DNA from: a virus
Strand: one strand, 5' to 3'
Length of the DNA: 49,756 nt
Virus record (IMG/VR): IMGVR_UViG_3300030450_002556
Span: 1-49,756 of that record
Below, one piece after another: positions 1,048 to 30,553 of the stretch (positions are counted from its first letter, which is position 1; every line of letters begins with the position of its first letter). Below the pieces are notes generated by a model, which saw only the letters and a list, made by a program, of their open reading frames with translations, was not told the DNA's origin and ran no database searches. A program made the position numbers and the translations under genes.

Positions 1048-1312
1048 GTTGTATGAAAGAGTAAATCAAGTAGCTGGAGGAATGTCTTTAGTTATGCAGA
1101 AGATAGAACATATTGAAAAAAATATGGGAGGCTTAGAAGAGATTACTATGAAGTTAGCTGAGTTTCTAGAAAAAAGGGAAGAATTTAATAAATATCTTGA
1201 AAATTGGTTGAAAGTGGAAAGTGAAACTTCAAAAAGTGGAGAATCGGTAAATAACGGCGAATTACTCTCTGGTAGCGGCGTATCCGATAAGCCCAGCGCC
1301 AGCGACGGGTAG
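1004..1312 (+). CDS. Coiled-coil protein, GTG start (102 aa)
   Basis: A good GGAAGGAG site precedes GTG 1004. Residues 8-75 form a predicted coiled coil rich in Gln, Glu and Lys. The final ~25 residues are a low-complexity Ser/Gly/Asp tail. It is the last plus-strand gene before the convergent late arm, and its 3' end overlaps the opposite-strand virion gene by 51 bases. Function unknown. Confidence 0.6.
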   Translation: MKINPRKIQQQNINELYERVNQVAGGMSLVMQKIEHIEKNMGGLEEITMKLAEFLEKREEFNKYLENWLKVESETSKSGESVNNGELLSGSGVSDKPSASDG

Positions 1313-2692
1313 TCCTACTCTAGTACCATAGAAGTAAGGATTGTAGCCTCTATAGCCTTTAGTTATATCATCTACATCTCTCATCATATTGTTTATATAT
1401 CCAAGCTCTTTATTAGCTATAGGTACATTAGTTCTTAATTGAGGACTTGATAATATCTCATCTAGAGCTTGTCTTCCAGTAGTAGGGTCAGTTAATGTCT
1501 TCATATCTCTAGGCCTAGTAACTCTTTCAATAGCCTTAGAAGCTTCTTTTTCAGCAACAGACTTACCTTTGAAATAGCCTTTAACTTTATTATTCCCTTT
1601 AGCAACAGTCTTTCCTATCTCAGGGACCTTTATAGTTTTACTTTTCATCACATTAAGAAGCCTATAATCCATACCTCTTTCTGTAGCAAATTTTAAAGCT
1701 GGTCCACCTATATCAAACTCATCAGATATATTAAAGTTAACGGTACCTTTCTTAGTATTTAGTACAGCTCTTACGTTAAATCCTCCTTTATATAGGTCAC
1801 TTCTTCTGTCAGGAGAGTATTCAAACATAATATTATCTTTATCTATTTTCTTGACTTGCCCTATCCCAGTCTTCTTTCCTTTAAAAGCAGCTTTAAAATC
1901 ATCAACTGTTCTAGCTTTCTTCAAATGAAATGCGTTAGATATATTAACAAAAGACTTATTCATTTGTGCGTCATGATGAGAGGCTGTTAATTTAGTTGCT
2001 TTTTGATAAGCTACTTTAACAGGCATACCTGGCTTGTTCATTCCCCAGCGACTTTTAACATCGTCTATTACAGCCTTATCGCTTTTAAAAATCTTTTTAG
2101 ATATATTTTTAGAGCCTACCTTACCTACTCCATAAAAATGAGCACCTTCTAAATCAGACATAACACCTACTTTATTACCATATCTATGGTTTAATCCTAT
2201 TTGAGTGTTATTTTGTCCTTGGATTTGTTTTGACAGTTCTTTTACAGCTAATTTAGGTTTATGCTTAAGCATACCATATTTACCCTTCCTTAAATCCCAA
2301 TTTTTAGGGTCTTTTAAAATACTATGAATAGCTTTTACATTGTTATTATTAACATCATAAGTCATTTTAGATATACCACCAAACCTATTCACTTTAGAAG
2401 CATCTAGATTTAAGGCTTGTTTTGTAGTAGTTTTAACTCCTTCTAAAAGTCCTTTTGCTAAAGAAGCTCTTTTAGCAGCCTCTCCTCCAGCATAAAACCC
2501 TTCTAATTTATTAGGGACATTACCAGCTAATCTTGATAAGCCATGTTTAGCTCTATTGTGAGCTAATTTTCTTAAAGCATGTTTCATAATACCACCACCT
2601 AATGCTTTAACTCCTAAAGCAACTCTACCCATAGGAGCAAATGACAAAGCTAATAAAGCATAATCTAATAGATTTTTAGTATCTTTATTCAT
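1262..2692 (-). CDS. Internal virion / DNA-ejection-type protein (476 aa)
   Basis: The preferred start is ATG 2692, placed after GGAGAGG. This gives an 8-base ATGAATAA overlap with the stop of the giant upstream gene; an in-frame ATG at 2704 is the alternative. The protein is basic. It has an Ala/Gly-rich hydrophobic N-terminal segment (about residues 10-40) and a Gly/Ala-rich hydrophobic C-terminus (GLPVAGAGLIGYAA). Hydrophobic, glycine-rich ends in a basic protein located next to other internal virion proteins fit a component ejected with DNA. No conserved domain was recognised. It is the last gene of the late arm. Confidence 0.7.
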   Translation of the reverse strand: MNKDTKNLLDYALLALSFAPMGRVALGVKALGGGIMKHALRKLAHNRAKHGLSRLAGNVPNKLEGFYAGGEAAKRASLAKGLLEGVKTTTKQALNLDASKVNRFGGISKMTYDVNNNNVKAIHSILKDPKNWDLRKGKYGMLKHKPKLAVKELSKQIQGQNNTQIGLNHRYGNKVGVMSDLEGAHFYGVGKVGSKNISKKIFKSDKAVIDDVKSRWGMNKPGMPVKVAYQKATKLTASHHDAQMNKSFVNISNAFHLKKARTVDDFKAAFKGKKTGIGQVKKIDKDNIMFEYSPDRRSDLYKGGFNVRAVLNTKKGTVNFNISDEFDIGGPALKFATERGMDYRLLNVMKSKTIKVPEIGKTVAKGNNKVKGYFKGKSVAEKEASKAIERVTRPRDMKTLTDPTTGRQALDEILSSPQLRTNVPIANKELGYINNMMRDVDDITKGYRGYNPYFYGTRVGLPVAGAGLIGYAATRE

Positions 2693-5600
2693 CTTCCTCT
2701 CCATTAGCTACAGGAGACCAAGGATAATAAACACCTTCTTTCTTCAATCTTTTAGATTCTTTTTGCAATCCAGTCAATGGAAATCCTGTCCATTTGTCCA
2801 TTAATCTTAAAGGATTATCAACTAAATTACCTGGAGCATAAGGGCTAAAGTCTCTAACTATTCTTCCAAATGGAAGTGCTGTATATATATGGTAATCAGC
2901 CATTCTTCCATAATCATCGTTAAGATATGCTTGTAGTCCTGCTGCAGGGAATCTAGCTATAGGAGGAGTAATCATTTGAAGAGGAGCTACTGGAGCAGGC
3001 CATGTTCCAAAGAAAGCCCTATCTCTTTCCTGTTCATTTCCAAATAACCAGTCAGATGTATCTTGTAACCAGTTCCATGGAGCTGGCATAGCAGTTTCAA
3101 ATAATGAATAAGCAAATACATTACCCATAGCGAATACAAATAAATCTATCTGAGCAGTTCTTTTAAACTTCTCAAATTCTGCACTACCAGGGCTTATTCC
3201 TCTAGTTCTAGCTTCTCTTATAACATCATTTCTAAATCTAGCTGCATTCCATGACCATAACATAAAACGAGTCATAACTTTACCTAAAGCTGTTCTTGCA
3301 AATGCTGGTCTATAAGGTGCATTATATAAGAACTGAGTAGCTTTTACACCTTTTTTAGCCATCTCTATTAAGAAAGGATGGTCAGGATTTTTAAATGCTC
3401 CTCCAAATTTATCATAAGCTCTTAAATAACTAGCAACAAAAGCATCTCTTCTTAGCTTAGTCTCTGGTTTAGACATAAATAAAGCCGCTTTCTCCATTAT
3501 AGGCTTACTTATTTCATATTTTTTAGCCAATTCAATTAATCCTGGCCTGTCAACTTTATCACCAGTAAACTTACCAACAGCTTCTTGAATAAATTGCTTA
3601 GCATTAGCAGTTCTTAATTCAGGAGATAAACCCCACTCATACATTATAAATTCAGGAATAATTCCATGCTTTACTACCCATTTATCACGGGCTTCTGCAG
3701 AGTTAATCTCAGGATTTATCTTTTGTAATTCAGAGACTTTTTGAGCTCTTTTAAAATAATTCCATCCAGCATGCTGTATAGTATGCATACTACCACCAAA
3801 TATGTTAGCTACCATAGATTTAGGGTGAGCTAATAGTGAAGCTAGTTCAAATTTTGCCTCCATATTAGATAGTTTTAATACTGTATTATGGTCTAAGTCA
3901 GTATCTATGATTTTCTCTAACTTAGGATGTAGTTTTTGACCTTTAAATAGCGAATTCTTTATCTTATTAAGCCTGTCTCTAACCTTATTGTCAGACCACC
4001 AGCCATAAGGAGTGCCTTTTATTTTCATAGTAGGGTCTTCATATACCTTATTAGGTATGATATCAGGATTACCCATAGCTCCTTGAGCATATAGTTTTAA
4101 GTAATTCTCCCAAGCTTGACCTAAACTCATATTATCTTTATAGTCTTTTGCTTTATACCAACCTTTTCTAAAGGCTCTCTTTTTATATTTCTCTATAATA
4201 TCACGAGTCATTATCTGATTTAACTGTTTAAAGTAAGTGTCACCCACATTCCTTAAGTAGGATTCATAAGTAGACCTTTCTATGGAGTAACCTGGTATAT
4301 GAGCTCCTCTTTTATACATAGATTTAATCATTAAATCATTATCCCACCAATCAATCCTATCAGGTCTTTTTTTACCCTTAACATCCTTAACAGCTTCACC
4401 AAGTTGAGCTCTATCAATAGATTCCCATAAACCTTCATTAGGGTCAATCCAATCCCCTGTTAAAGACTTATGTTTAGCAACTAACTTTCTAATTTCTGCA
4501 TCTTTTTCAGCTGGTTCTAGGTCACTATTCATTATCTCAATAGTTCTTTTATTTATAGCCTTAACAACTTCTTTACCACTAAAGAATAAGTGTGGCCAAA
4601 AACCTCTAAAATGTTTCTGACCTGTTCTTGTAAGAGTAGCATTTATAAGCTTTTGTCTCAACTCTTTACCTTTAGCATCTTTAGAAAGCATATCTATCTG
4701 CATTGAGCGAGCTATTTGCCTTAAACCATCTATACCTAGCCATTTAGGAATAGATTCACCTTTATTATAAGTCTTACTTATATCTCTTAAAAATCTATTA
4801 TAGTCAAGTATAGGCTCTACTCTATGTTTATCCCACCAACCTATACCATATTCTTTTATAAGTCTATCTCTATCTCCTGTCAATAGTTTATGAGCTTCTT
4901 TATTAGAGGTTTCATAGACATCCATTATTCTTTCAACAATTTCCCATCCAGTTTTCTCTACTCTTTCACCTTTTCTATTGACGATTCTATGACTTTTATC
5001 TAACATATCTCCAGCTTCTTTTACTTTCCTATCATATCTTCTTAGTATCTCTCCAGACGCTGCATTTTTATGCTCAGGAGTCATTTTCTCATCTTTCATT
5101 ATAGAGGGAACTTCATAATCTTTTTCCATCTTCATAACAGCAACTTTTCTTAGAAGCTCATTATTGGGTACACCTTCCATAAATAATAAGTCGTTATTTA
5201 ACTTACCAGTAAGTTGCTCTGTTAACTCAATACCTTGTTGATTCATACGACCAATCCAATCAGTCATGCCTTGTAAATACCAAGAAGGTTTCTGAACCTT
5301 ACCTTCCTCCCATTTACCATCTTTAGTAAGGAATGCTCCTTTATTTCTTAGCCAAGTAATATCGTATTTCATTACCTCTCTAGACACAGTTTCAGGGAAT
5401 TGCATATAATATCTTTTCTTTAACTCAGGTATTCTTCCTTTAGGGTCATTGCCCATAAGGATATCAAGCTTTTGATTTAAGGTACCTGTTCTCATTTCTT
5501 TTAAGACATTGTTAAATATCATGAAATCTTCTCTATTCATAGCATTTAAATCTTTCTCCATTACACCACGAACGACTTCCCCAAGTCTCATACCTATCTC

Positions 5601-8600
5601 TGGGTAATGGTATTTAATATTAGCAGCTAATTCCTCTATTACTTTTGCATCTTTAGGGTTTAATTTCCCTTTAGACAGACCTTCAAACCCTCTTAAATCT
5701 GCTGTATATGTACCTTCAACTTTCTTGTCAATATTACTACCAAATATAGTACCATCTACTTCTGTACCATCTTCTAATTTAATTTTAGTATTTTCTTTTA
5801 AATTCTCTATATTCTTTTGTATATTTTCAACTTCTCTGCTAGACTCTTTAAATGCTTTTCCTGAGATATCCATAAAATCTTTCATAAAATCTCTAACAGA
5901 GTTATCAGAAACTGACTCTGAGCTATAGCCTAACTTTGATAAACTAGTTTTAGCTCCTGCTTGTTTAACTATATGTAGCAAATCGTGGAATATAGGGTCT
6001 GTTTCAGATAGGCCTTTTAATAGTTTCTCTGCTTTATGAGCTCTTCTCATATGCATCCTATCCCAAGTCCCTAACATAAAATAGTCAAATAACTTTTTAC
6101 CCCATGGAGTAAGTTTCTTTTTATAAGTAGCTATTTCAGCGTCTACCTTTACTTGGTCCATAGTAGCAGAACGCTCTTCTCCAGAAGGTAATTTAAAAGT
6201 AGGGTCTTTTTTTAGTTCTGGAATAATCCTAACTATATCTCTAAACATGTCTTGTATTACTTCAGGCTTAGTTTCCATATTATCATAGAAAGCATCAAGC
6301 TCTCTTCTTTGGTCTCTCATTAGATAGCTACTTTTCTTAAGCTCATCAGTCTTGTTAAATACTTCTAAAATCATTTTATCAAACTTCTTTAACTCTCTAC
6401 CAGTTAGCTTATCTCTTCTTTGTTTTATAAATGGAACAATTCTTTTCAAGCTAACCATATCATGAAGGTCTACAGTTAAAAACTCATCAGCCTGTCTAAC
6501 CATTTTCTTAAGTATTTCTAATCTTTTAGTATAACCAAATTCTTCACCATTATTAACTTTCTCTAGCAATACTTTATCTTTTCCATAACTAGTACCCTTT
6601 ATAGCATTTAAAAACTCTTCTTTGCTACTAGCATGGTAATCTAGTTTATCTGAATTATACAACTTTTTATTTAATACATTTTGTATGTTCTCTATATAAG
6701 GTACTTTAAATCCTGACTTTCCTAATATAGGAGCTAACCAGCTTTCTTTCTCGGCATATTCATTTACCTTATTATACAGCTCAATTGTTTTAGTTCTGTC
6801 TAATCTCTTAGCCATAGAATCACCAAAAGGCTCTGCCATTCCTATAGTGTCACCCATTTTAGCTAGCAATACAGGCATTTCTTCTGGAGTAAGCTCATGT
6901 AAAAATCTTAACTTATCTCTAATCTCACCTTCTTCCCACCTTTTATTATTAGCATAATCTTTTCCAAATAAAGCACTATTCATTTCGTTCACTTTGCCAA
7001 CTAGAGAAGGAGTTTTGAACCCTCCTTTTAATCCCCACATTTTAAAGTTCTTAACAAATGAATCTATATTATCTTTATAACCTTTTACTTCAACAGATTT
7101 CTTACCACTAATATCTTTAACTTTATTTATCTTAAAATAGGCATCATAAAGTTCTTTATACCAAGTCTCATAAGACTTTAACCCTACTTCATCCATAGGG
7201 TCAGAAGCAAAAGCAACCATAGATTGACTCAATTTTCTTTGGTATTGTTGCCATTCTTTCTCAGTTCTAGGTACAACCTCTATTTCATATGTCTTCCATT
7301 TACCCTTTTCCTTTCTCTGAATTTGAAAGACATCTTTACCATTCTGGCTTGACATCATCATAGAGTGAGCAGTCTTAAATATCTGAGGCATACTTACAGC
7401 TGGTCCTAATGTATTCCTACCATCAACAGCTTTTTCAGAAATATACTGCCTTGTTGATAAAGCATATTGAAGAACTTTAGAGTTCTTTAAAGCTTTGGCA
7501 TAAGATTTATCTGTACCTGTCAAGGTTAATAAGTCTCTAAAAGTATTTCCTTTATGCTTACCATCTGGTCTTACCACTTCTCCAGTTTTAGGGTCTGGAA
7601 TATATTTAACAAAATTCTTTCTTTGAAGCTTAGGTTTTTTAGTATATTCTTCAGGGGTTATGATTTTATTAGTAGTGACATTTCTATACATAACATATTC
7701 TTCTTTATTGGCTTCATAAACATCTTTCCATTCCTTTTTAAAGCCACCACCTTCCTTGCCTTTTCTACCGCCAAAATACATAAAAGCTTCATCTCCATCA
7801 AGGTCTGCACCACCTAACGAACGCATAGTTCTAGAGTGCATTAAAATACCATGACCATCCCTACCTGTAAATCCTCTAAATTTTAGTGCATGAGCACCAG
7901 AAATCGAATCCATCGGCACACGGAGTACCACAGCCCTTAAAACCTCCTCTATTTGCTCTTTAATCGTCTTAGAAGTGCTTTTATTTTCATACTTCTGGTA
8001 CAGTTTGTCCAAATTAGTGTTTTCAAGCCCTTTTATGAAGGTTTTTATAGGCATTTTTTTATACTCATTATCTAAGAAAAATATATCATCTCTCTTTTCA
8101 AGTTCTCTAAGTCTTGGGTTGGCATTATCAAGGTCCATTCTTAATGCTAAATCATACGGTCTTATCCTGGCATTACCAGAGTTCCCTATCTTAGGTCTAC
8201 TAACTGTATGTACTAAGAAGTTCCTCATCATTACTGCTCTATAAGGTCTAATCCATTTATGTAACATGACAGGCAAAGCGCCTTGTTTAGAAGTTTGAGC
8301 TACTCTTAAGGATTGTGTTATTATTCTATCTGTAGCTTGATTAAATTCAGACATTTCTTCTTGCATATTACTAGCCTGTTCTTTAGTAATCTCTCCTTCA
8401 TTCCTCATAGCCTCTATAGCTTCTGCATTTATTTTAAACAATCGTTTATAAGCAGCATCTGCAAATTTAGTCCCATGAGGAGAGTGTATACCTCTTAATA
8501 GTTCATTAACACCTATATCTTCTATATTCTTATTAAGATAAGCTAAGTCTGAATCGTTATGTTCTTTTAAATACCTAGAAAGTACCTCATTAGCTTCAGT

Positions 8601-11600
8601 TTTACCCCTAAACCTCTCCATAATAGTACCTTCGTATATATCATTTATCATATCTGGAGATACTGGAGAGTAAGCGTTTTGAGTTAAGTGAGCTAAAGCT
8701 TGCTTAGCTATAACGTGGTCACCTTTAAACATATGGTCATTTTGTTTTACAGAGTAATTATACTTTATTTCTGAAGGGTCTACACTATATTTTTCAGCAG
8801 CTATTTCCAACTTACCATCAGAAGTAATATTGTAATCACCTATTTGCCTTGTCCCTCTTTGCTTAGAGGATGACTCCATTACTATGTAGTGTAAACCTTC
8901 CTTTTCCATTAACTCGGATAATTTAGCACCAGCTTTATGTGACATATACTTACCATACATAGCTCCCATAGGATTTCCATTCTTATCATTCTGAGTGCTT
9001 AGCATAAATGATTTGTTTTGACCTGACCTAGGCATTCCTGCGTCTGCATTCATATAATCAACAACATCATTCCTTGTTATAATAGCACCATCTACATGCT
9101 CTACATACATACTGTTTCTAACAGCTTCTATGTTAAATTCAGAATTACCTAAATGACTCCAAATTTTAGGGGTTTCCTTTAAATCTTTTACAATAACATA
9201 GTTTAATCTACCCTCTGGATTTAAATCCTTTACCCAGGTCTTTGCCAATTCTTTACTTCCAGGCCAAGAAGGAGTCATTATAATTTGAAGTCTTTTGTTA
9301 AATCCTACAACTCCCTTGATAAACCCATCGCCCATCATAGTAGCAACATATTTATCTATAGTATTCCTTTTTGTAGACAATTTATCTTTCATAGTCCCAG
9401 AGCCTATTTGAACTCTTTTACCAGACACTTTAATATCAAATCCATTTAAGGATAAATCATATAGTATATTAGACTCAAATGCCCTGTCAAAAATCTTCTT
9501 AGCTTCAGCAGATTTTAGTATGCCTTTATTTCTATTTACAAATTCATTTCTTGCATTTATATATTCGTTATTATTTTTAGTACCACTTTTTATCTTAGAT
9601 AAGAATTTAGAGTTTAAACTTAAGCCTGTCTTTCCACTAGCTGGATGGTACTTAGCATAGTACAATCTATCGGCATCACCTCTACCTCCAAACAGATAAA
9701 AGTCTTTCTTATTCATACTCTTATTTATCTCACTTAGAGTTTTGTCGTATTCTTTAGGATTGCTTCTTCTAAAGTCAGATAGTGTGCCATCTTTAACCCC
9801 AGCATCTTTAGTTCTTGTAGATATATTATCCACAATAACAAGAGAACCCATATCTTTATCAAGCTTTCCTCCAGCTTCTACAAACATTCTTTCTATTATC
9901 TTTTCAGGTTCTCTTTGAAACTTTCTATTTCCAGCAGGAGTTCTTCTTCTAGCCTCAGTCATAGGCTCTACAGATATTTTGCCATCAGCTTCGTTAAAAG
10001 TGACATTTACATATCTATTAGGAACTGCATTATTCTTTATATTTAACCATTGTCTTAAACTTCCAACAGCTTCTTCTGGAAGAGATAAATTAAACTCTTT
10101 TTCTATTTCATTTATTAACCCTTTAGTATTAGGTTCGTCACCTCTAGAAGTATACTTAGTTAATATCTTTTCAACTTTAGATGCCATTTCAAATGTATGC
10201 ATCCTTTTAGTTAAATTCTCTGGAGTATCTACTATTTTAGATATATGTTGATTAACAAATTGTTCTGACTTCTTGCCTACATCTACGTCAATCTTCATGC
10301 CTACATCAGTATCATTTAAATCTTCTGGAACTGCTTTACCTTCCTTATCTAACGTCATATCAGAAGGAACTTCATACATCTTTTCAAGCTCTTTATTTAA
10401 GGTATTTAACTCATTAGTAGATAGTTTTAGGTCTTTCTTAAGCTGGATTAAATTAGCTTTATCTTCTCCAGTCTTCTTCTTTTTATTACCTATTTCTTTT
10501 ATAGCCTCTCTATATGCATCTATTTCTTCTTGAACATTATTACGTCTTGTTTCTTTCTCTATAATTTTAGGACGCATAGTAACACTAGGAGTAGACACTT
10601 CTTCTTCTGCAACAGCTCCTTTTACCTTCTTCTCTTTTACAGATTCTCCAAAAGTCTTAGCTATAGTATTTTCTACAGCCTCAATACCTTGTTTCCATAT
10701 ATTTCTAGTTCCAACAAGTGCTGGCTTCTTAGATAGTTTTGGAGCTTCAGATATAGCTTTAAATTGATTTAACCTGTAATCAAACTTAAACCATTTGTTC
10801 TTAGCTTGTTCAAAAGTATATATAGGTTTTTTTAGTTGCTTTGCAAATTCAACTGTCCATCCAGAACCACCTCTGACAGTTTTATTATCAGTATTTATAT
10901 GGCCTATAGCATAAACTCCATCAGAAAACTTTGCTTTAAACCAATTACTATATATATAGTTTCTAGCAGTAGGGTCTGAAGGTGCATTTTTACCTAAAGA
11001 CTTAGCAGCTCTAACAACTCTTGGTCCAGCTTCTTGCAATTCACCTTCACTTAACTCTCTTATAACACCAGGAATACCTTTCTTTTCTATCCTTCTTCCG
11101 CCACCTTCATATGTATATTGAACAGTTTCTACACCTCTTTCAGCTATCCTACTAGACCATATATTATCAGCTCCTTCTGAACCACCAGATACTGCAACTT
11201 TAACTTGACCTTTTCCAAGTTCTTTTGTAGTAGCTATCTCTTCTCCACCTATAACTTTCTTAAGACCTGCCCATCCTTCTTTAGTCGCCTCTCCATTTAC
11301 AACCTCACCTAATCCCATTTTCTCAATTAAGTAAAGCCCCATACCTTGGTTTTCTAAGGCATTGCCCCATCTATTTTCAGCATCTTTTATTAATTGCTCT
11401 TGAACCTCTGGTTCTAAATCTTCAAACCCTTTCATTTTTCTAGGGTCTCTAGTGACAGCTAGCTCTTCATTTCCAGCTTTTTCAGCTTGTTTTACCATTT
11501 CTTGCTGAGCTCTCATAGAACCATGTTTTTTCCAGCTCATTTCCTTACCACCAAAATACCCACCTAATAGATATTCATATATCTGTTCAGGAGTAGTAGC

Positions 11601-12335
11601 TCCTCTAGCAGTAGATGGAAGGCCCATAAACAAAGAGCCTGATAATCTTCTTAACCATACCTGGTCTTTACCAGGCATTATATTACCTATAGCTCTAAAA
11701 GCTCCACCTGCTATAGCGCCTCCAAAGAAAGATTCCATCATAGAGTCTATACCACCTTGCCAAGTAGATACTCCACTAGCTACACCTAAATGGAAAGCTC
11801 CTTCAGCCATGTGAGCTGGAGCACCTTTAGTCATAAACTTAGCAGCATCTGATACAGCTCCTGCTCTACCAGCTCTTGCAGCTTTAGTAGCTGGAGCAAC
11901 TAATGATTTAGCCCCTTTAGTTACTTTATCTGCTATAAGCATTGGAACTGACTTTATTTTAGCTACGTGAGAAGCAAGTCCTATACCTCTAAATAGAGGA
12001 GCAGCCATACCAGGCACAAAACCTATTAAATGTCCTAGATTCCTAGATATAGCTTCATATTCATTGTCTGGATGTTTACCTACATCAAATGTGGTAAATC
12101 CACCGATAAATCCCATTCCAAATTGCTTAAAGGCTTCACCAATACTAAACTCACCTTCATAAAATGGTTTATTGTAAAACGAGGCATGATTTTTTATCTG
12201 CTGAATAGCAGGAGGTTGAAACATCTGGGGTGATGTTTTATATAATTTTATAGTTTGATTCAGCTGGTCTTCTGTCCAAGATGGTTTCCATTCTTGTTCA
12301 GGGACCTCTGAATAACCCATAGACGCTTGAGCCAT
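2685..12335 (-). CDS. Giant virion protein with SLOG-like and two-barrel RNA polymerase domains (3216 aa)
   Basis: The likely role is a virion-packaged polymerase that enters the cell with the DNA and starts early transcription. An N-terminal Gly/Ala-rich hydrophobic region covers about residues 70-220. A SLOG-like Rossmann domain lies at about 375-525, with SGGSEGADNIW and GGSGWTVEFAKQLKKPIY. A polymerase region spans about 1050-1620. Its first barrel candidate includes HVDGAIITRND (~1080) and Lys-bearing strands (~1130-1160). Its second barrel holds RVPMDSISG (~1470) and GGADLDGDEAFMYF, with the metal-binding aspartates at 1511, 1513 and 1515. A helical segment after it resembles the bridge-helix/trigger-loop zone. 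Long charged helical stretches follow, then a hydrophobic C-terminal part at about 3060-3090. DxDGD is the hallmark of cellular, QDE-1/YonO and crAss-type polymerases. The domain boundaries are inferred by eye. Confidence 0.8.
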   Translation of the reverse strand: MAQASMGYSEVPEQEWKPSWTEDQLNQTIKLYKTSPQMFQPPAIQQIKNHASFYNKPFYEGEFSIGEAFKQFGMGFIGGFTTFDVGKHPDNEYEAISRNLGHLIGFVPGMAAPLFRGIGLASHVAKIKSVPMLIADKVTKGAKSLVAPATKAARAGRAGAVSDAAKFMTKGAPAHMAEGAFHLGVASGVSTWQGGIDSMMESFFGGAIAGGAFRAIGNIMPGKDQVWLRRLSGSLFMGLPSTARGATTPEQIYEYLLGGYFGGKEMSWKKHGSMRAQQEMVKQAEKAGNEELAVTRDPRKMKGFEDLEPEVQEQLIKDAENRWGNALENQGMGLYLIEKMGLGEVVNGEATKEGWAGLKKVIGGEEIATTKELGKGQVKVAVSGGSEGADNIWSSRIAERGVETVQYTYEGGGRRIEKKGIPGVIRELSEGELQEAGPRVVRAAKSLGKNAPSDPTARNYIYSNWFKAKFSDGVYAIGHINTDNKTVRGGSGWTVEFAKQLKKPIYTFEQAKNKWFKFDYRLNQFKAISEAPKLSKKPALVGTRNIWKQGIEAVENTIAKTFGESVKEKKVKGAVAEEEVSTPSVTMRPKIIEKETRRNNVQEEIDAYREAIKEIGNKKKKTGEDKANLIQLKKDLKLSTNELNTLNKELEKMYEVPSDMTLDKEGKAVPEDLNDTDVGMKIDVDVGKKSEQFVNQHISKIVDTPENLTKRMHTFEMASKVEKILTKYTSRGDEPNTKGLINEIEKEFNLSLPEEAVGSLRQWLNIKNNAVPNRYVNVTFNEADGKISVEPMTEARRRTPAGNRKFQREPEKIIERMFVEAGGKLDKDMGSLVIVDNISTRTKDAGVKDGTLSDFRRSNPKEYDKTLSEINKSMNKKDFYLFGGRGDADRLYYAKYHPASGKTGLSLNSKFLSKIKSGTKNNNEYINARNEFVNRNKGILKSAEAKKIFDRAFESNILYDLSLNGFDIKVSGKRVQIGSGTMKDKLSTKRNTIDKYVATMMGDGFIKGVVGFNKRLQIIMTPSWPGSKELAKTWVKDLNPEGRLNYVIVKDLKETPKIWSHLGNSEFNIEAVRNSMYVEHVDGAIITRNDVVDYMNADAGMPRSGQNKSFMLSTQNDKNGNPMGAMYGKYMSHKAGAKLSELMEKEGLHYIVMESSSKQRGTRQIGDYNITSDGKLEIAAEKYSVDPSEIKYNYSVKQNDHMFKGDHVIAKQALAHLTQNAYSPVSPDMINDIYEGTIMERFRGKTEANEVLSRYLKEHNDSDLAYLNKNIEDIGVNELLRGIHSPHGTKFADAAYKRLFKINAEAIEAMRNEGEITKEQASNMQEEMSEFNQATDRIITQSLRVAQTSKQGALPVMLHKWIRPYRAVMMRNFLVHTVSRPKIGNSGNARIRPYDLALRMDLDNANPRLRELEKRDDIFFLDNEYKKMPIKTFIKGLENTNLDKLYQKYENKSTSKTIKEQIEEVLRAVVLRVPMDSISGAHALKFRGFTGRDGHGILMHSRTMRSLGGADLDGDEAFMYFGGRKGKEGGGFKKEWKDVYEANKEEYVMYRNVTTNKIITPEEYTKKPKLQRKNFVKYIPDPKTGEVVRPDGKHKGNTFRDLLTLTGTDKSYAKALKNSKVLQYALSTRQYISEKAVDGRNTLGPAVSMPQIFKTAHSMMMSSQNGKDVFQIQRKEKGKWKTYEIEVVPRTEKEWQQYQRKLSQSMVAFASDPMDEVGLKSYETWYKELYDAYFKINKVKDISGKKSVEVKGYKDNIDSFVKNFKMWGLKGGFKTPSLVGKVNEMNSALFGKDYANNKRWEEGEIRDKLRFLHELTPEEMPVLLAKMGDTIGMAEPFGDSMAKRLDRTKTIELYNKVNEYAEKESWLAPILGKSGFKVPYIENIQNVLNKKLYNSDKLDYHASSKEEFLNAIKGTSYGKDKVLLEKVNNGEEFGYTKRLEILKKMVRQADEFLTVDLHDMVSLKRIVPFIKQRRDKLTGRELKKFDKMILEVFNKTDELKKSSYLMRDQRRELDAFYDNMETKPEVIQDMFRDIVRIIPELKKDPTFKLPSGEERSATMDQVKVDAEIATYKKKLTPWGKKLFDYFMLGTWDRMHMRRAHKAEKLLKGLSETDPIFHDLLHIVKQAGAKTSLSKLGYSSESVSDNSVRDFMKDFMDISGKAFKESSREVENIQKNIENLKENTKIKLEDGTEVDGTIFGSNIDKKVEGTYTADLRGFEGLSKGKLNPKDAKVIEELAANIKYHYPEIGMRLGEVVRGVMEKDLNAMNREDFMIFNNVLKEMRTGTLNQKLDILMGNDPKGRIPELKKRYYMQFPETVSREVMKYDITWLRNKGAFLTKDGKWEEGKVQKPSWYLQGMTDWIGRMNQQGIELTEQLTGKLNNDLLFMEGVPNNELLRKVAVMKMEKDYEVPSIMKDEKMTPEHKNAASGEILRRYDRKVKEAGDMLDKSHRIVNRKGERVEKTGWEIVERIMDVYETSNKEAHKLLTGDRDRLIKEYGIGWWDKHRVEPILDYNRFLRDISKTYNKGESIPKWLGIDGLRQIARSMQIDMLSKDAKGKELRQKLINATLTRTGQKHFRGFWPHLFFSGKEVVKAINKRTIEIMNSDLEPAEKDAEIRKLVAKHKSLTGDWIDPNEGLWESIDRAQLGEAVKDVKGKKRPDRIDWWDNDLMIKSMYKRGAHIPGYSIERSTYESYLRNVGDTYFKQLNQIMTRDIIEKYKKRAFRKGWYKAKDYKDNMSLGQAWENYLKLYAQGAMGNPDIIPNKVYEDPTMKIKGTPYGWWSDNKVRDRLNKIKNSLFKGQKLHPKLEKIIDTDLDHNTVLKLSNMEAKFELASLLAHPKSMVANIFGGSMHTIQHAGWNYFKRAQKVSELQKINPEINSAEARDKWVVKHGIIPEFIMYEWGLSPELRTANAKQFIQEAVGKFTGDKVDRPGLIELAKKYEISKPIMEKAALFMSKPETKLRRDAFVASYLRAYDKFGGAFKNPDHPFLIEMAKKGVKATQFLYNAPYRPAFARTALGKVMTRFMLWSWNAARFRNDVIREARTRGISPGSAEFEKFKRTAQIDLFVFAMGNVFAYSLFETAMPAPWNWLQDTSDWLFGNEQERDRAFFGTWPAPVAPLQMITPPIARFPAAGLQAYLNDDYGRMADYHIYTALPFGRIVRDFSPYAPGNLVDNPLRLMDKWTGFPLTGLQKESKRLKKEGVYYPWSPVANGEEDE

Positions 12336-12347
12336 ACTTCCCTTATA

Positions 12348-13847
12348 TTAAAACTTATATCGTTTTTTATCTACGATAGGGTTTACCATTAGTTCTTCTT
12401 CAACTGTTGGCTGTGTTCCTATTTGAGCTTGAGTAGCTTCAGCTTCTCCATATTCTTTCAATATTTCCTGAGATAGTGTATATAAATCATGCATTAACCA
12501 AGCATCCATTCCTAAGGAAACAACACCTGAAGCCCCAGCAGTAAAAGGAGTAGCAGATTTCAATATTCCACTTGCTACAATCTTAGAACCTAATTTAAGT
12601 CCAGCCTTTTTAAGGATACCAGTCCAACCTACTTTAGCAACAGCTCTATTTATAACTTTACCAGAATTTTGAACCAATCCTTTATTGACTAAGTTTTGCA
12701 TTGCTTTCTTTTTTATAACCTTCTTAGAGACTAGTTTATTAACTTCTTTCTTAGTATTTTTTAGCTCTTTAAGATATTTATCTTTATATACTTGACCTTT
12801 TTTGCCAAATTTTATACCTTCTACCTGCTTAATACCTTTATCTAATTTTCTCTTTACTGAATTCGCCCAAGCTTTTTTATCCTTAGCACTTTTCCAATTT
12901 AATTCTTTTCCTTTTATATTAAAAGCATTCTTTCCGCCAATCTTTGTTAAATCATTTCCAATATTTCTTGTGCTTTTAAACAAATCATTTCTAATAGTTC
13001 CTTTTTGATTTATAGCATTAGCCCAACCAACTTGTTTCATAGGTAATGGAGTTCCTGGTTTAAAAGCTCCTGTAGCAGACCACCCTTTATTAGCATAATG
13101 AGAAGCCATAACACCCTTGCCTGCCATACCTCTTGCATGTTGAATAGATGACCATCCAGGCAACATAGCATGTGCAGCTGCAGAACGAACTCCAGCTACA
13201 GCACCTTTTCCTGCTGCTTTTTGAGCCATATAAGCAGCTCTACTACCTGCTAGTCCTTTTACACCAGCTCTAGCTTGAGCTGTACCAAATGGAACTAAAG
13301 GGTTAACTCTGTCATCCATAAGCCCTTCCGCAATTGAACGCCCTAAAACAGTCTTAGGGTCAGCTGCTACATCTTGCAATCCTACCATTAAAGTACTAGC
13401 AAATGCATGTTGAGGATTAGCTCTTAATGACTTCATAATATCCATTCTTAATCCAGGATTGTTTCTATAAGTGTTTCTCAATGCTTTATTAAAATCATCG
13501 TTTTTGGCATACATAGTTTGTAATTGACCTATTCCGTCAAGTAATTTGGTCTGTTTGGAAGATTTTATAGTATTTACGGTATCCATAAATCTTTTATAGT
13601 CTGGTCGCATGCCTCTAGATTTAGCAGCTCTAGCATACTTATCCCATGCAGCAGTTCTGTCATTTACAGTCATAGGTTTATAGGCTATCACAGTATCTCC
13701 TGGTTTCCAAGAAAATCCAGGCTGTCCAAAGCCCTGATTAGACATTGTTGCAAAAAAGTCTTCATGCCAAGTATCGTTTTTTAACCTTTTTGCTTCCTTC
13801 ATTAATTCAAATGCTTGCCAATTTGCCGCCATCTTATATCTCTCCAC
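12348..13847 (-). CDS. Internal virion protein, basic and Ala/Gly-rich (499 aa)
   Basis: The protein is strongly basic. It has an Ala/Gly-rich middle section (about residues 185-260), a very Lys-rich zone (about 310-400) and a hydrophobic segment near the C-terminus (about 410-460). The tail is acidic. It lies between the giant polymerase-bearing protein and another internal-protein candidate, and overlaps the latter by 14 bases. Composition and position suggest an ejected core protein comparable in role, not in visible sequence, to the T7 gp14-gp16 set. In-frame ATG codons 5-6 residues in could also be the start. Confidence 0.65.
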   Translation of the reverse strand: MERYKMAANWQAFELMKEAKRLKNDTWHEDFFATMSNQGFGQPGFSWKPGDTVIAYKPMTVNDRTAAWDKYARAAKSRGMRPDYKRFMDTVNTIKSSKQTKLLDGIGQLQTMYAKNDDFNKALRNTYRNNPGLRMDIMKSLRANPQHAFASTLMVGLQDVAADPKTVLGRSIAEGLMDDRVNPLVPFGTAQARAGVKGLAGSRAAYMAQKAAGKGAVAGVRSAAAHAMLPGWSSIQHARGMAGKGVMASHYANKGWSATGAFKPGTPLPMKQVGWANAINQKGTIRNDLFKSTRNIGNDLTKIGGKNAFNIKGKELNWKSAKDKKAWANSVKRKLDKGIKQVEGIKFGKKGQVYKDKYLKELKNTKKEVNKLVSKKVIKKKAMQNLVNKGLVQNSGKVINRAVAKVGWTGILKKAGLKLGSKIVASGILKSATPFTAGASGVVSLGMDAWLMHDLYTLSQEILKEYGEAEATQAQIGTQPTVEEELMVNPIVDKKRYKF

Positions 13848-15231
13848 CTTTTATATTATACATTAAATTTGCGATAAATCTATTTACAAAGTTTGGGGCA
13901 TCTCCCCTAGCTTCTATATGCTTATCTATTGCCTTTTTCTTTAAATCTTTAACCCTACTTGCACCATGTTGTATACTTTTTGCCGTATCATAATCTTTTT
14001 CATAGCTAAAATCTATCCAATCTTTAGCTCCTTTAAATGAACCATCTACTAACTTCCCTGCCATATGTCGTTCAAACTCTTCAGGGTCGTCATAACCACC
14101 CTCGCTTAATTCTTTTAATTCTTTTAAATCATCTACAAGCTCTGGATTTAACTCCATTGCTTTATCCCAATTTACTTTCATATTAGTACTAGAAGCTATG
14201 TTCTCAGAGAATTCGTTTTGTTGAGATACTTTAGCATCATGCTCATCAGCACTACTATTCTCCCACCAGTTTTCAGATTCTTCGTAATCATCGATTTCCT
14301 TACCGTGATGCATAATAAGGTCTATCATGCTATGAGCGTATTTATCAGCAGATTTTCCTGTTTTTATTGCAGATATAGTAGGACTTAAAGCATCTCCTAT
14401 TTTTTTACCCATACCTTTAATACTTAATTCAGGCATATTAGGAAAGATACGTTCTAAACCAATATCTCCATAATCATAACCAAAACGAGCGCTATCCCCT
14501 CCATATTTAAATAAGTTTAAAGTTTCGGTAACTTTTTCTCCATCTATAACATTATCTTCTTTGCGCTCACCTGCTTCAAATCCTGGAAGGAATGCTTGTT
14601 GTGTATCTTTTGCATATTGAGATTTTTTATCACCTGGGCTAAAACTATAAACCCCTTCATAAGCTGCATTTGGAGAGTAGTCATAAAGACCTCCCTCAAA
14701 GTCAGCATTATAAGCAAGAGGAATCGACCCATCATCAGTAGGTATCATAAGCCCGTAATTATCATCCCAGTCAAGAGTGCCCTCTTTAGCCGCTTTTAAA
14801 ATACCATGTCCTTCAAGATATTTGTCAAATGTATCGTACATGCCACCTTCTAAAAAGGATTTTGCAAGCCCAGAAGGATTACCTCCTATCATGTACTTTT
14901 CATCTTTTTCTTCAGCCTTTTTTTTATGGTATTCGTAATTAGCTTTAGCTTTTTGGACTAAACTTTTCTCAAGCATATCTATATTATCAGCTGAGTACTC
15001 ATAGGACCGCTGTCCACCTCTTAACCTATTGCCTAAATCGGACTCAGAAGCAAGCATTCCCATTCCAGCCCACTTTTGAGTAGCTATGTCACCACTAGTA
15101 AGAGGATTTCCATAGTCATCATAATCTACTATGTCACTAGCTCTACTTCTATGCATTAAATCCTGCCAAGGACTGCTTTGTCCCCAATGCTTATCGTAAA
15201 TAGTGTCTTTGCCGTATATATCTAATGCCAT
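13834..15231 (-). CDS. Acidic internal virion protein candidate (465 aa)
   Basis: This is an Asp/Glu/Tyr-rich soluble protein with no clear membrane segment and several charged helices (for example around residues 80-115 and 345-400). It starts MALDIYGKDTIYDKHWGQ. It lies between two candidate ejection proteins and overlaps the next gene by 14 bases, so it is probably part of the internal core or tail-tip assembly. No domain was recognised. Confidence 0.6.
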   Translation of the reverse strand: MALDIYGKDTIYDKHWGQSSPWQDLMHRSRASDIVDYDDYGNPLTSGDIATQKWAGMGMLASESDLGNRLRGGQRSYEYSADNIDMLEKSLVQKAKANYEYHKKKAEEKDEKYMIGGNPSGLAKSFLEGGMYDTFDKYLEGHGILKAAKEGTLDWDDNYGLMIPTDDGSIPLAYNADFEGGLYDYSPNAAYEGVYSFSPGDKKSQYAKDTQQAFLPGFEAGERKEDNVIDGEKVTETLNLFKYGGDSARFGYDYGDIGLERIFPNMPELSIKGMGKKIGDALSPTISAIKTGKSADKYAHSMIDLIMHHGKEIDDYEESENWWENSSADEHDAKVSQQNEFSENIASSTNMKVNWDKAMELNPELVDDLKELKELSEGGYDDPEEFERHMAGKLVDGSFKGAKDWIDFSYEKDYDTAKSIQHGASRVKDLKKKAIDKHIEARGDAPNFVNRFIANLMYNIKGGEI

Positions 15232-15236
15232 ATTAT

Positions 15237-15779
15237 TTAATCTTCAGATATGAAATCGCCCCACATTGTATTACCATGGCTATCATAAGGAGATATCATC
15301 ATATTTAGACCTCCTTGCAAGTTATCATACCAACTCATATCTTGTTGATGTTGAGCACTTCTTATTCCTGTTAATGCTTGACTATATTGATTTTGTCCTT
15401 GCAGCCAATTACTATACATATCATCACTCTTTCCTTGAAGATTTATCCAAGCATCTTGTAATGTTTGACCAGTCCCTTGAACTGCTTTAGTCGTTCTATC
15501 TAAATTTTGTTGATTTGTAATACCACTATTGGCTCCATACATCATTCTATTGTTTAACATATTAGAGAAATCTGAAGAATTATATACTTGATTTAATAAA
15601 CTATCTCTATTTTCTGCCCAAAAATTGCTATTAGGGTTTCGATATTCATTTATTCTATCCATTTGGCCATCTAAACCTTGTTTAAAAGGTTGTAAATCTC
15701 TTTCCATTTCAGCCCTAGATGGACCGCTTCTGAATAAATTCATAGCCATACTAGCTAATCCAGGTACTAACTCTATCAT
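15237..15779 (-). CDS. Gln/Asn-rich small internal virion protein (180 aa)
   Basis: The 180-residue protein has a hydrophobic N-terminus (MIELVPGLASMAMNLF) followed by helical, Gln-, Asn- and Met-rich sequence. This resembles small podoviral internal proteins such as gp14-type proteins, which insert in the outer membrane during DNA ejection. A GGAGAA-type site (complement of 15780-15790) lies just upstream. A 59-base gap separates it from the preceding virion gene. The assignment is by character and position only. Confidence 0.55.
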   Translation of the reverse strand: MIELVPGLASMAMNLFRSGPSRAEMERDLQPFKQGLDGQMDRINEYRNPNSNFWAENRDSLLNQVYNSSDFSNMLNNRMMYGANSGITNQQNLDRTTKAVQGTGQTLQDAWINLQGKSDDMYSNWLQGQNQYSQALTGIRSAQHQQDMSWYDNLQGGLNMMISPYDSHGNTMWGDFISED

Positions 15780-26798: not shown

Positions 26799-27176
26799 TT
26801 ATTCTCCTGTAAATACAGCACTACTAGCTAAAGTTTGTGCTTCTGATTTTGTCAATATACTAAAGTTAGGATACGCCTTACTAGCGCCTAAATCTGCTAA
26901 AGCTGACAGTTCTCCTTCCTTCATTGAAAATTCGCCCTTTATGATGCAAAATTTCTCGTCATTTGCTACTCCTGATTCATCCCAGTTAAACGAATATCTA
27001 GGAGAACCTAGTTTGCCCTGAAATACTGCTTCATGCCATGTAGGAGCAGACTTATAAGTTATAGTTCCATCTTCAGCTTCAGATTCGATTATCTTTAGCT
27101 TGTCTTTTATTTTTGTTGGTATTGCTGACTCCCAAACTGTCTTAGGAAAGCAATAATACATTTCATAATGTGCCAT
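26799..27176 (-). CDS. Virion-associated protein of unknown function (125 aa)
   Basis: This soluble alpha/beta protein starts MAHYEMYYCFPKTVWESAIP. It overlaps the stop of the large LamG protein by one base. It shows no recognised motif. The context, between LamG adhesins and adaptor genes, suggests a small structural component. Confidence 0.5.
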   Translation of the reverse strand: MAHYEMYYCFPKTVWESAIPTKIKDKLKIIESEAEDGTITYKSAPTWHEAVFQGKLGSPRYSFNWDESGVANDEKFCIIKGEFSMKEGELSALADLGASKAYPNFSILTKSEAQTLASSAVFTGE

Positions 27177-30100
27177 TATCTATGACTCCTTTTTCCTGCG
27201 TTATAATTTCTTTTTATTTCTGCTGCTGACATTTCCTTATTAGTATAAATCATCACATCATCTATTTCCCCATCAAAGTGATGGTCATCAAAATTAGCGT
27301 CTTCATTCCAGCCTATTGTAAGATTAGCTCCATTAGATAAGTTATCATCAGGGCTTTGAGAGCCTTGAGCTCCTAAACTTGTATCTGTGTCAACTAAACT
27401 TCCATTTATATACCATTTAAAAGAATTGCTTCTATTAGTAGTCAATCCAAAATGTATCCAGGTATCTAAACCGTTTGCATCCAAATCAAAAGCAGAATTA
27501 CTAATATTAATTGAGGTGTCAGCGCTTCCAGCTCTTGCATAAAATTGAAACCTTGGAGGATTTGCATTATTAGCTCTTAAATACCATCTTTTTGTATCGC
27601 TTACATATTGAGATAATATCCATTGCTCATGCCAATCTCTATATTTTTTCAACCACATAGTCATAGAGAAAGGTGTTGTTCCTAGCTCAATAGGGCCTTG
27701 AACGTCAACATGTGGACCATTATCAATACCTGAAGCTATTAAATTAGTGCATAAATTCAATGCATTAGTATCTTTCTGTCTATTCATTAAGAAACCTTGA
27801 CAATCTCTTTCAGCATCCACTCCTGCTTGTTGTAATATGGTTTCAGAGCAAGTAACAGTACCATTATTACTACCTTGTAAATCAGTCCAAGTAGCAAGAC
27901 CATTATTTTTCCAATATCCTGACAATCCTCCATTACCACTAGCTTCTCTTGCATCCTTAGCTTTTCCATCGTTATATAAATCATTTATTTCTGCTTGAGT
28001 TAAAAGGTCTGTATAATGAGATATTTCTGTAATAGCCCCTTGCATATTTGTTGTTGCAGCTTGAGCATTTCCAAAAGAGTCTATTTTTAATCTTGTTCCT
28101 TCTGCACTATCAGCTGTAGCTGAAGAACTTGCAAGTAGTTCTCCATTTTTATAAACACTTATAGTTCTGTCTGCATTCCAAAGCCATGTCCACATAACCC
28201 ATTCACCTTCAGGGATTACACCTGCATCACCTAAATCTATAAGCATTGGAGTATTATCATCTGCTTCAAATTGAAATTTTTCTGTAGGGTTAGATGAGTC
28301 TATTCTCATATAATTTTCTGTTCCACCAGATAGTCCAAAAAAGTCTCTAGACCCTGTGCTTGTATCATTAATAAGTGCCCACATATTAATAGAATGCCCG
28401 TCTTCAAAATTAAATTCTGTTACTGCCACTTTATCATTATATCCATCAAACCAAGCCAATTGATTATAAGATTGCAATGCTGTTTGTGGTATATCAAGTT
28501 GTTGGTCTGCATCTGTCCAACCTGTGGCTGTACCTTCTTCTTTTAAAGTAACATCATCTATATACCAAGTACCAGTACTTTCATCGCCACTATGAAAAGC
28601 CACATAAGCTCCTGCTCCACCAGACGAATCTACTATTGTTTTTGATATAGTGTTCCATCCATCTTGAGCCAACCCTGTTACAGCAAAATCATGAACAGTA
28701 CTTCCATTACCTTCTACATACTTTATACTTACTTTTTCAAAATCGTCAGGATAAACCTCACAAGTCAATTTGTATGTTCTTCCAGCAACAGTAGTCATTG
28801 TATCAGACTTAATTCCATCATTAGTGCTAGAAGGTATAAATTTCCTAGAATGTGAGCCACTATGGACCTGCGTAGAACTCCTTACATTAGTATTAGGGCT
28901 CGATTGGTCAGCCCAATTAGTAGTGGCTTCCATTGTTCCGTTTGTAATCAACTCATCACCATAAAATACAGTTGTTGCATGATTTTTATCATTGACAGGT
29001 TTGGCTGATATGCTACTTACAGTTCCTTCAAATGTACTATTTCCAATAAAATATATCCTTCCGTTTTGAGAGCCAGTACTTGTATCAGATGTTATATAAA
29101 AAGTATGTGTCCCAGAAGATGTCATAGAATAACTATCGTACCCCCCTACATTAACCTGAAGAGTACCTGCACTTCTTGTCATTTCTATAACAACCTTAAA
29201 TGATGTATTTATTGCTGCCCCAGCATTTTGATAGACTTCAACGTCTCCGCCTTGACTACCATCACAAGAAGCTACTCCATTTGAGAATGTCCAAGGAGAA
29301 TCTACTCTATCCCAATCACTTGCTGATAAAGAAGTTCCTCCTTCAACAAGCTCATCACCCAATCCTGTATTTGAAGCATCAAGAACATATGATTGTTGCC
29401 CTCTATGTCCATCATTCATTGGATACCAGAGTTTTAGATTAGACTCTGTTAAAGATGTGCCACCTCTATTTAAAGCTAATTGTTCAGGATTTGCATAATC
29501 AAAGGCTACATCATCAGATGTCCAAGTAGCATCCCAATATTGAAAATCAGACATTTTCCCTGCATAGTAATTAGCAGATGTCCCTGCTGTTAAAGCTCCT
29601 AAGAAAATTTCCTTTGCAGTAGAGTCAACAGTGCTTCCTATTGTAGCTGTTGAGGTTTCATTAGATACCCAAGTCGATATATTCACTCCATTTACATAGG
29701 CATAAGATTTAGCAGAAGAAAAATCAAATGTAACTACAACCCTATACCATGTGTTAATAGGAATATTAGAACTAGCTAATACAAAATATTCATAAGGGCC
29801 AGTTCCGCTCCCATCTGAAATATAACCTCTAATCGCGTCCGATGCTAACCAAAGAGACCATTGTCCTCCGCCATTTCCACTTCCAGTAGCTCTTCCAACA
29901 AGCCCTTTAGCAGAGCCATCAAATTCATCTCTATTCATCCAAAAAGCAACTGTCACATTATCAACTTTAGGGAATGTTGTCACAGAGTTAAGATAATCAC
30001 TAACCCCATCAAATTCTAAACCTCTACCTGAATATATTTGTCCATGGTTATTATTACTAAAGGTTTTTACCTCTTTTACAGATACATTGTCAAATGTAAG

Positions 30101-30553
30101 ATTTACTGATGCTCCAGTTTGATTAATAGTAAGCGATGTTCCTGTAGCAGTAAAAATATGGTCAATAGAGCCTGTTCCACTTAATGACGCTAAAACTCCC
30201 TCACCTTCATAATTATGCCATAAACCTACGCTACCAGCTGTATGTGCTGTGCAATCCATTTTAAATCTATAAGTTTTTCCAACCTGAAAAACATTGTTTT
30301 GAGTTATATATAAATCTGCTGAATCGTTAGAAACATATACAGCGGCTCCCCCACCTCCTGCTTCGTTAATATGATTATTTGCATCTTCATTATGCACTGT
30401 CCAATTGTCTGGATTTGGATTAACAGAAGATGAAGACCAATTGGCAAAGCCACCATTAGTGACTCTTTCTTGACCTATCTCTTGATATGAAGTAGAAGTA
30501 TCCCATGCTCTCCATCTTTTTGGTGTTTCTATTGTTTGTATTGTTGCAGCCAT
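27176..30553 (-). CDS. Multi-LamG adhesin / glycan-binding virion protein (1125 aa)
   Basis: Three laminin-G/concanavalin-like domains can be read at about residues 180-370 (GLEFDGVSDY, WYRVVVTFDF, YVNGVNIS), 700-860 (WFDGYNDKVAV, WVMWTWLWNADRTISVYKNG) and 950-1115 (FSMTMWLKKYRD, YINGSLVDT, GEIDDVMIY). Between them, at about 25-165 and 400-690, lie beta-sandwich segments resembling carbohydrate-binding modules (ELVEGGTS, DVTLKEEG, NVSVKEV). These folds bind sugars or cell-surface polymers, so this is probably a surface-exposed host-binding or capsid-decorating protein. It is translationally coupled to a smaller LamG protein upstream. Confidence 0.78.
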   Translation of the reverse strand: MAATIQTIETPKRWRAWDTSTSYQEIGQERVTNGGFANWSSSSVNPNPDNWTVHNEDANNHINEAGGGGAAVYVSNDSADLYITQNNVFQVGKTYRFKMDCTAHTAGSVGLWHNYEGEGVLASLSGTGSIDHIFTATGTSLTINQTGASVNLTFDNVSVKEVKTFSNNNHGQIYSGRGLEFDGVSDYLNSVTTFPKVDNVTVAFWMNRDEFDGSAKGLVGRATGSGNGGGQWSLWLASDAIRGYISDGSGTGPYEYFVLASSNIPINTWYRVVVTFDFSSAKSYAYVNGVNISTWVSNETSTATIGSTVDSTAKEIFLGALTAGTSANYYAGKMSDFQYWDATWTSDDVAFDYANPEQLALNRGGTSLTESNLKLWYPMNDGHRGQQSYVLDASNTGLGDELVEGGTSLSASDWDRVDSPWTFSNGVASCDGSQGGDVEVYQNAGAAINTSFKVVIEMTRSAGTLQVNVGGYDSYSMTSSGTHTFYITSDTSTGSQNGRIYFIGNSTFEGTVSSISAKPVNDKNHATTVFYGDELITNGTMEATTNWADQSSPNTNVRSSTQVHSGSHSRKFIPSSTNDGIKSDTMTTVAGRTYKLTCEVYPDDFEKVSIKYVEGNGSTVHDFAVTGLAQDGWNTISKTIVDSSGGAGAYVAFHSGDESTGTWYIDDVTLKEEGTATGWTDADQQLDIPQTALQSYNQLAWFDGYNDKVAVTEFNFEDGHSINMWALINDTSTGSRDFFGLSGGTENYMRIDSSNPTEKFQFEADDNTPMLIDLGDAGVIPEGEWVMWTWLWNADRTISVYKNGELLASSSATADSAEGTRLKIDSFGNAQAATTNMQGAITEISHYTDLLTQAEINDLYNDGKAKDAREASGNGGLSGYWKNNGLATWTDLQGSNNGTVTCSETILQQAGVDAERDCQGFLMNRQKDTNALNLCTNLIASGIDNGPHVDVQGPIELGTTPFSMTMWLKKYRDWHEQWILSQYVSDTKRWYLRANNANPPRFQFYARAGSADTSINISNSAFDLDANGLDTWIHFGLTTNRSNSFKWYINGSLVDTDTSLGAQGSQSPDDNLSNGANLTIGWNEDANFDDHHFDGEIDDVMIYTNKEMSAAEIKRNYNAGKRSHR

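Follow-up and report, generated by a model that had tools for sequence, protein, structure and literature searches.

The window analysed here is a stretch of 49,756 nucleotides (nt), positions 1 to 49,756 of the IMG/VR virus record IMGVR_UViG_3300030450_002556, and it carries on the minus strand a gene for a giant protein of 3,216 amino acids (aa) that contains an RNA polymerase (RNAP; 2685..12335). The whole record is 52,397 bases long, and its source is a tailed phage of ~52 kb. The giant gene is the next-to-last gene of the late minus-strand cluster, in which the order is lysozyme, TerL (phrog_38), portal (phrog_156), a scaffold-like gene, the major capsid protein (phrog_1328), tail-type genes, a metallophosphoesterase and a 2,273-aa protein, followed by proteins of 217, 180, 465 and 499 aa, the giant protein and a 480-aa protein. 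An earlier note on this DNA had proposed a cellular-type (DxDGD) RNAP at nt 7500-9200, which correspond to residues 1046-1612 of the giant protein, and both barrels of the polymerase lie inside that range.

The polymerase domain occupies residues ~806-1836 (6828..9920; this and all following parts of the giant protein are on the minus strand). The first barrel (beta-like, double-psi beta-barrel DPBB-B) spans residues ~1045-1190 (8766..9203) and the second (beta'-like, DPBB-A) residues ~1380-1530 (7746..8198), the latter placed by the secondary structure of the model described below and by alignment to the largest subunits of Pol II and Pol IV. The open reading frame (ORF) contains GGADLDGDE, and GGADLDGDEAFMYF begins at residue 1508 of the protein. 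The putative catalytic metal-binding motif D1511-L-D1513-G-D1515 (7791..7805, the aspartates reading from nt 7805 to 7791) is preceded by RVPMDSISG at residues 1472-1480 (7896..7922), with R1472 located 39 residues before D1511; these residues are exactly where the earlier note had put them. A long helix pair in the model at residues 1626-1662 (7350..7460) is a candidate bridge helix, and its R1629 and R1640 are arginine in 117/117 members of the family.

Because the protein is so long, a bare DxDGD motif is weak evidence, and 144 of 3,000 shuffles of the giant protein contained one. This is not the case for the fuller pattern RxP-x(33-39)-GxDxDGD, which was found in 1 of 3,000 shuffles. The 60-residue block surrounding the motif is identical between the window protein and L001, the one relative that a whole-protein search of IMG/VR returned (76% identity over full length).

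Structure prediction places these motifs within a recognizable fold. An AlphaFold2 model of residues 806-1960, built from a 39-sequence alignment (A4), had a mean predicted local distance difference test score (pLDDT) of 83 and a predicted template modelling score (pTM) of 0.82, and it showed a single-chain two-barrel RNAP fold. A Foldseek search of the PDB gave three matches with an expect value (E) <= 0.001, namely 6vr4 (7.5e-10), which is the virion RNAP (vRNAP) of the crAss-like phage phi14:2, and two QDE-1 structures (~1e-5). The highest VIA Z scores, 11-13, went to RDR2, P23-45 gp64, P74-26 gp62, QDE-1 and 6vr4, all of which aligned over model residues ~1-1030 (806-1835 of the protein) with 451-713 residues at 3.8-5.5 A. 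The largest subunits of Pol I, II, III and IV followed with Z 9-10, mainly over the second-barrel half, those of Pol II and Pol IV over model residues ~565-1025. When E-value, Z and aligned length are taken together, the top group is clear of the chance level stated for the tool. The model is also strand-rich at residues ~1080-1160, where the earlier note had seen a first-barrel candidate. That note had named a fold comparison with QDE-1, YonO and crAss gp66 as a check on its proposal, and the model is a two-barrel fold with the phi14:2 vRNAP and QDE-1 as its best Foldseek matches.

Searches of Pfam, PHROGs and PDB (phmmer) with the whole protein gave nothing for the polymerase region, no Pfam, PHROG or NCBIfam model covers it and no Pfam RNA polymerase model matched, and a profile of the polymerase against PDB sequences yielded a single match at 0.06, which is chance level. 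No match to the polymerase core was found by tblastn among INPHARED phages, many crAss genomes included. A pattern search of GTDB with one genome per species returned 593 matches and no relative, and therefore provided no host link.

Within IMG/VR the family is large. A DNA pattern for GxDLDGDEA recovered ~40 further giant ORFs, a profile of the polymerase core matched 171 contigs, and a profile of the C-terminal 655 residues matched at least 352 contigs. Complete ORFs at 67 loci of the core set were 2,824-3,525 aa long and intact. The first sets of relatives had been fetched with patterns that included the aspartate motif or RVPMDSxSG, so a second set of 80 relatives was fetched by the C-terminus alone; 59 of these reach the polymerase and were read on the columns of a hidden Markov model (HMM) alignment, and the other 21 have ORFs of <= 1,518 aa, consistent with contig fragments. 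Many contigs are common to both sets, which are thus not independent samples, but the motif played no part in selecting the second set, and this removes the circularity of the motif-based sets. Additionally, two viral models in BFVD, A0A516LW39 and A0A516LAI4, matched at 24-27% identity over 850-1,110 columns (Foldseek E 3e-52 and 2e-43) and are members or close cousins of the family. Extra stretches that may be insertions or inteins were seen in the relatives L017, L034, L085 (3,525 aa in total) and L126 (3,364 aa), with ~100-160 additional residues right after the DxDGD barrel in some of them.

Across 119 aligned members there was no variation in D1511, D1513, D1515, R1472, P1474 or G1480, and the spacing from the arginine to the first aspartate was 39 residues in 119/119 members as well as in 10/10 crAss RNAPs. 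Positions K1014, R1015, D1082, G1083, K1108, K1129, K1158, G1161, R1163, K1211 and Q1212 were invariant in the ~110 members that cover them, and the first-barrel residues among these (D1082-G1083, K1108, K1129, K1158 and R1163) were kept in 109/109. In the set selected by the C-terminus, the three aspartates and R1472 were present in 59/59 relatives, K1108 in 56/56, K1129 in 57/57 and K1158 in 57/57, while the residues between the aspartates varied (DLDGD, DLDAD, DLDID, DHDID, DKDGD). Fixed aspartates amid varying neighbours are the pattern predicted by selection for catalysis. K1108, K1129 and K1158 are probably the equivalents of the lysines of cellular RNAPs. The cellular-type two-barrel RNAP proposed in the earlier note thus has strong support, drawn jointly from the fold, the motif spacing and the invariance of the active-site residues, and a two-barrel polymerase is established at the level of fold and active site. 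Catalytic activity of the polymerase is very likely.

The nearest known system is the phi14:2 vRNAP (gp077 in KC821624; PDB 6VR4), likewise a single-chain two-barrel polymerase within a giant protein, which had the best Foldseek match in the PDB, aligned over 713 residues at 4.0 A and has the same spacing of 39. The two differ in sequence (~10-11% identity; DFDID there, DLDGD here) and in genome, that of phi14:2 being a 100 kb member of the Crassvirales whereas the record studied here is ~52 kb with other structural genes. An HMM of the first barrel aligned in register with the crAss cr50_1 RNAP at the K1158 motif (SAAKQxGxR vs SAVKVGQR) with 11.9 bits, compared to 4.1 for the best of 78 decoys. 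In P23-45 a two-barrel polymerase, gp96, is also fused to a giant virion protein, but there it is clamp-less and occupies the N-terminal part of a tape measure of 5,002 aa in a long-tailed phage (PMC10770324), whereas here the polymerase is central; the non-virion RNAP of the same phage, gp64, aligned over 456 residues at 4.8 A (Z 12.2). YonO of SPbeta, likened here by description, is a phage single-chain DNA-dependent RNAP with the aspartate triad of multisubunit RNAPs (PMC5467207), but it is ~100 kDa, non-virion and transcribes late genes. QDE-1 and RDR2 have a similar fold (461-561 residues at ~4-5.5 A, Z 11-13) but are eukaryotic RNA interference (RNAi) polymerases, RNA-templated, with ~10-13% identity and no giant phage protein. 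The vRNAP of N4 is a giant protein of ~3,500 aa with a central polymerase that is packaged and injected, and its fold is T7-like. The likeness to N4 is one of function and layout only, as the modelled region here is two-barrel and not palm, fingers and thumb. Fusions of vRNAPs to giant proteins have been described in crAss-like and N4-related phages (PMC10770324), and two-barrel phage RNAPs fused to giant virion proteins are a kind already known. As a separate observation, a 'structural protein' of Flavobacterium phage Fpv1 (L139; KU599877) matches the phi14:2 RNAP and carries RTP...DYDID; the Fpv1 record is not placed in the Crassvirales, and this protein would be a crAss-type vRNAP outside the named order. 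No paper describing the giant-protein family was found in the open-access literature searched. The family is a new and widespread one of two-barrel phage RNAPs outside the crAss-like phages, and as far as checked, the combination of a central polymerase, a variable SLOG domain and a conserved helical C-terminus in a non-crAss genome of ~52 kb is new for this kind.

The regions that flank the polymerase differ in their conservation. A conserved N-terminal region (residues 1-370, 11226..12335), delimited from the conservation profile, contains one short hydrophobic peak and is followed by a SLOG/DprA-like domain at residues 380-512 (10800..11198). This domain matched phrog_768 with an E of 0.0024 in the window protein and 1.7e-11 at best in relatives, and one relative matched Pfam cpYpsA SLOG at 1.9e-14. 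SLOG domains bind nucleotides or nucleotide signals, so this one may act as an injected effector or in counter-defence. The region is among the least conserved parts of the protein, with BLAST gaps, and it is absent from several relatives. A link between DprA/SLOG domains and crAss RNAP polyproteins was considered and is not claimed: two crAss records name the RNAP coding sequence 'DprA-like', but scans of the cr130_1 stretches, translated with TAG as Q, detected no such domain. The C-terminal helical region (residues 2560-3214, 2694..4658; alignment A6) is among the most conserved parts of the giant protein. It shows weak similarity to NCBIfam NF032893 (PLxRFG 'tail-700') at residues 2941-3031 with an E of 3e-5, below the cut-off, and the 'tail-700' name is attached to a giant protein of Lastavirus podoviruses (PMC9505181). 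The AlphaFold model of this region is almost wholly helix but of low confidence (pLDDT 61, pTM 0.38) and was judged too poor for a fold search. The earlier note had described the flanks as hydrophobic and helical. The helical part fits this low-confidence model, but the flanks are hydrophobic only mildly, with two short Kyte-Doolittle peaks in the giant protein (~100-122 and ~3061-3083).

The gene order around the giant gene is not crAss-like, as the earlier note had observed. The nearest portal and TerL sequences are those of non-crAss phages at 23-27% identity, the closest portals (~23%) being in KPP25-like and P22-like portal records; in relatives, early genes (Sak4-like, its neighbour and ThiF) follow the giant gene on the opposite strand, so that replication and late genes converge on it, and the record is ~52 kb. 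No long-tail genes were recognised in the record, nor was any other DxDGD-type polymerase. The three genes upstream of the giant gene (180, 465 and 499 aa; 12348..15779, minus strand) are candidates for ejection or internal virion proteins. Their order and sizes recall the ejection-protein sets of podoviruses (P22 gp7, gp20 and gp16), a likeness of layout. Homologs on the same strand precede the giant gene for the 2,273-aa protein in 36 relatives, the 217-aa protein in 19, the 499-aa protein in 10 and the 180-aa protein in 3, and sequence matches to the 465-aa protein were found in none of the relatives. Where similarity is lost, a similar size series of ~180-300, 330-520 and 430-540 aa still leads to the giant gene. 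The 480-aa gene that ends the late cluster (1262..2704, minus strand) had no family match, and an ORF of ~460-500 aa is at the same place in several relatives.

These data suggest that the giant protein is probably a virion-borne, single-chain, two-barrel DNA-dependent RNAP. Packaging and ejection with the DNA is a plausible and our preferred explanation, based on gene position, giant-protein architecture and precedent. Several results weigh against the virion-borne polymerase as a whole: neither terminal region can be tied firmly by homology to ejection proteins already known, the model of the C-terminus is poor, a repeat search and a sigma-70 scan gave no convincing early promoter and nothing above chance, and hhalign comparisons with phi14:2 and an 11-sequence crAss set, in register at the motif, did not reach significance over the domain. 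The last of these is in line with the statement that two-barrel families often have little in common beyond the DxDxD region (PMC10770324). The main rival is an active two-barrel RNAP that is made in the infected cell and not packaged, its gene merely lying in the late cluster. Two-barrel RNAPs of phages need not be virion proteins, as YonO and P23-45 gp64 show, and can serve the transcription of late or early/middle genes (PMC5467207, PMC10770324). However, such enzymes are far smaller (595 aa for the gp64 chain, ~100 kDa for YonO) than the 67 complete members of this family, and the giant gene is embedded after tail-type genes, so we regard this explanation as unlikely.

The fold by itself would also fit a polymerase with another use, whether injected or not, such as RNA-templated synthesis in the manner of QDE-1 or the making of RNA primers, since two of its nearest structural neighbours, QDE-1 and RDR2, use RNA or single-stranded DNA templates. 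The closest Foldseek match is nevertheless the DNA-dependent phi14:2 vRNAP, and a candidate primase-helicase ORF, with motifs read by eye, is already present in the early operon, which makes such a use more doubtful still. With its several domains, an accessory SLOG domain among them, and its weak likeness to PLxRFG, the protein resembles other giant phage proteins, and in principle the two-barrel fold could be catalytically dead and serve an ejected polyvalent protein for structure or for gripping DNA. We consider this very improbable given that the aspartates, R1472 and the first-barrel lysines are complete in relatives picked without using them while the residues between the aspartates change. 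Finally, DLDGD could have arisen by chance in a structural protein unrelated to polymerases, given that ~5% of shuffles of a protein of this length contain DxDGD, but this suggestion is already refuted by the fold, the spacing and the family-wide invariance, and we give it practically no weight.

For the preferred virion-borne polymerase, we infer a DNA template, packaging, ejection and an early-gene role by analogy with phi14:2, P23-45 gp96 and N4 (PMC10770324, PMC7886860). The giant protein would be made late and packaged together with the neighbouring 180-, 465- and 499-aa proteins, and would then be ejected through a short tail, ahead of or with the DNA. The polymerase would be carried mid-protein (~806-1836), flanked on one side by the N-terminal region, in which the SLOG domain is dispensable, and on the other by the long helical C-terminal region. 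The second-barrel aspartates would bind Mg2+, and the invariant first-barrel lysines and R1472 would contact the incoming nucleoside triphosphate and the RNA end. In the divergent early/replication operon, the enzyme would transcribe the first genes at a stage when the host polymerase is not yet needed.

Other genes of the record were noted in passing. Overlapping early genes at 46644-48148 (plus strand) encode a Prok-JAB-like protein (Pfam E 3e-5, just below the cut-off) and a ThiF/E1-like protein (E 2e-18), a pair that could be a counter-defence or protein-modification module. A 581-aa ORF at 7654-9399 of L130 (49353-51098 of the record) was read by eye as an archaeo-eukaryotic-type primase (DID, SGxGxH) fused to a RecA-like helicase, with a short run of N in the record. 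Adjacent genes of 1,125 and 259 aa at 27176-31332 (minus strand) appear LamG/concanavalin-like by eye and are possibly capsid decorations or receptor-binding proteins.

To our knowledge, only a handful of phages (phi14:2, P23-45 and jumbo phages) have had a virion-packaged two-barrel RNAP solved or tested. The data presented here make it reasonably likely that a separate and very widespread lineage of such enzymes exists outside the crAss-like phages and P23-45, and that uncultivated phages of ~50 kb inject it to start transcription independently of the host enzyme. This family contributes hundreds of diverse sequences from small genomes, and its polymerase lies centrally in a protein of ~3,000 aa, an N4-like layout with a cellular-type fold. 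It would give a name to the largest protein of an abundant, unannotated phage group. As a compact and deep set it also lends itself to studying how these polymerases get through a narrow tail and find promoters without sigma factors, and what their relation is to the ancestor of the cellular and RNAi polymerases.

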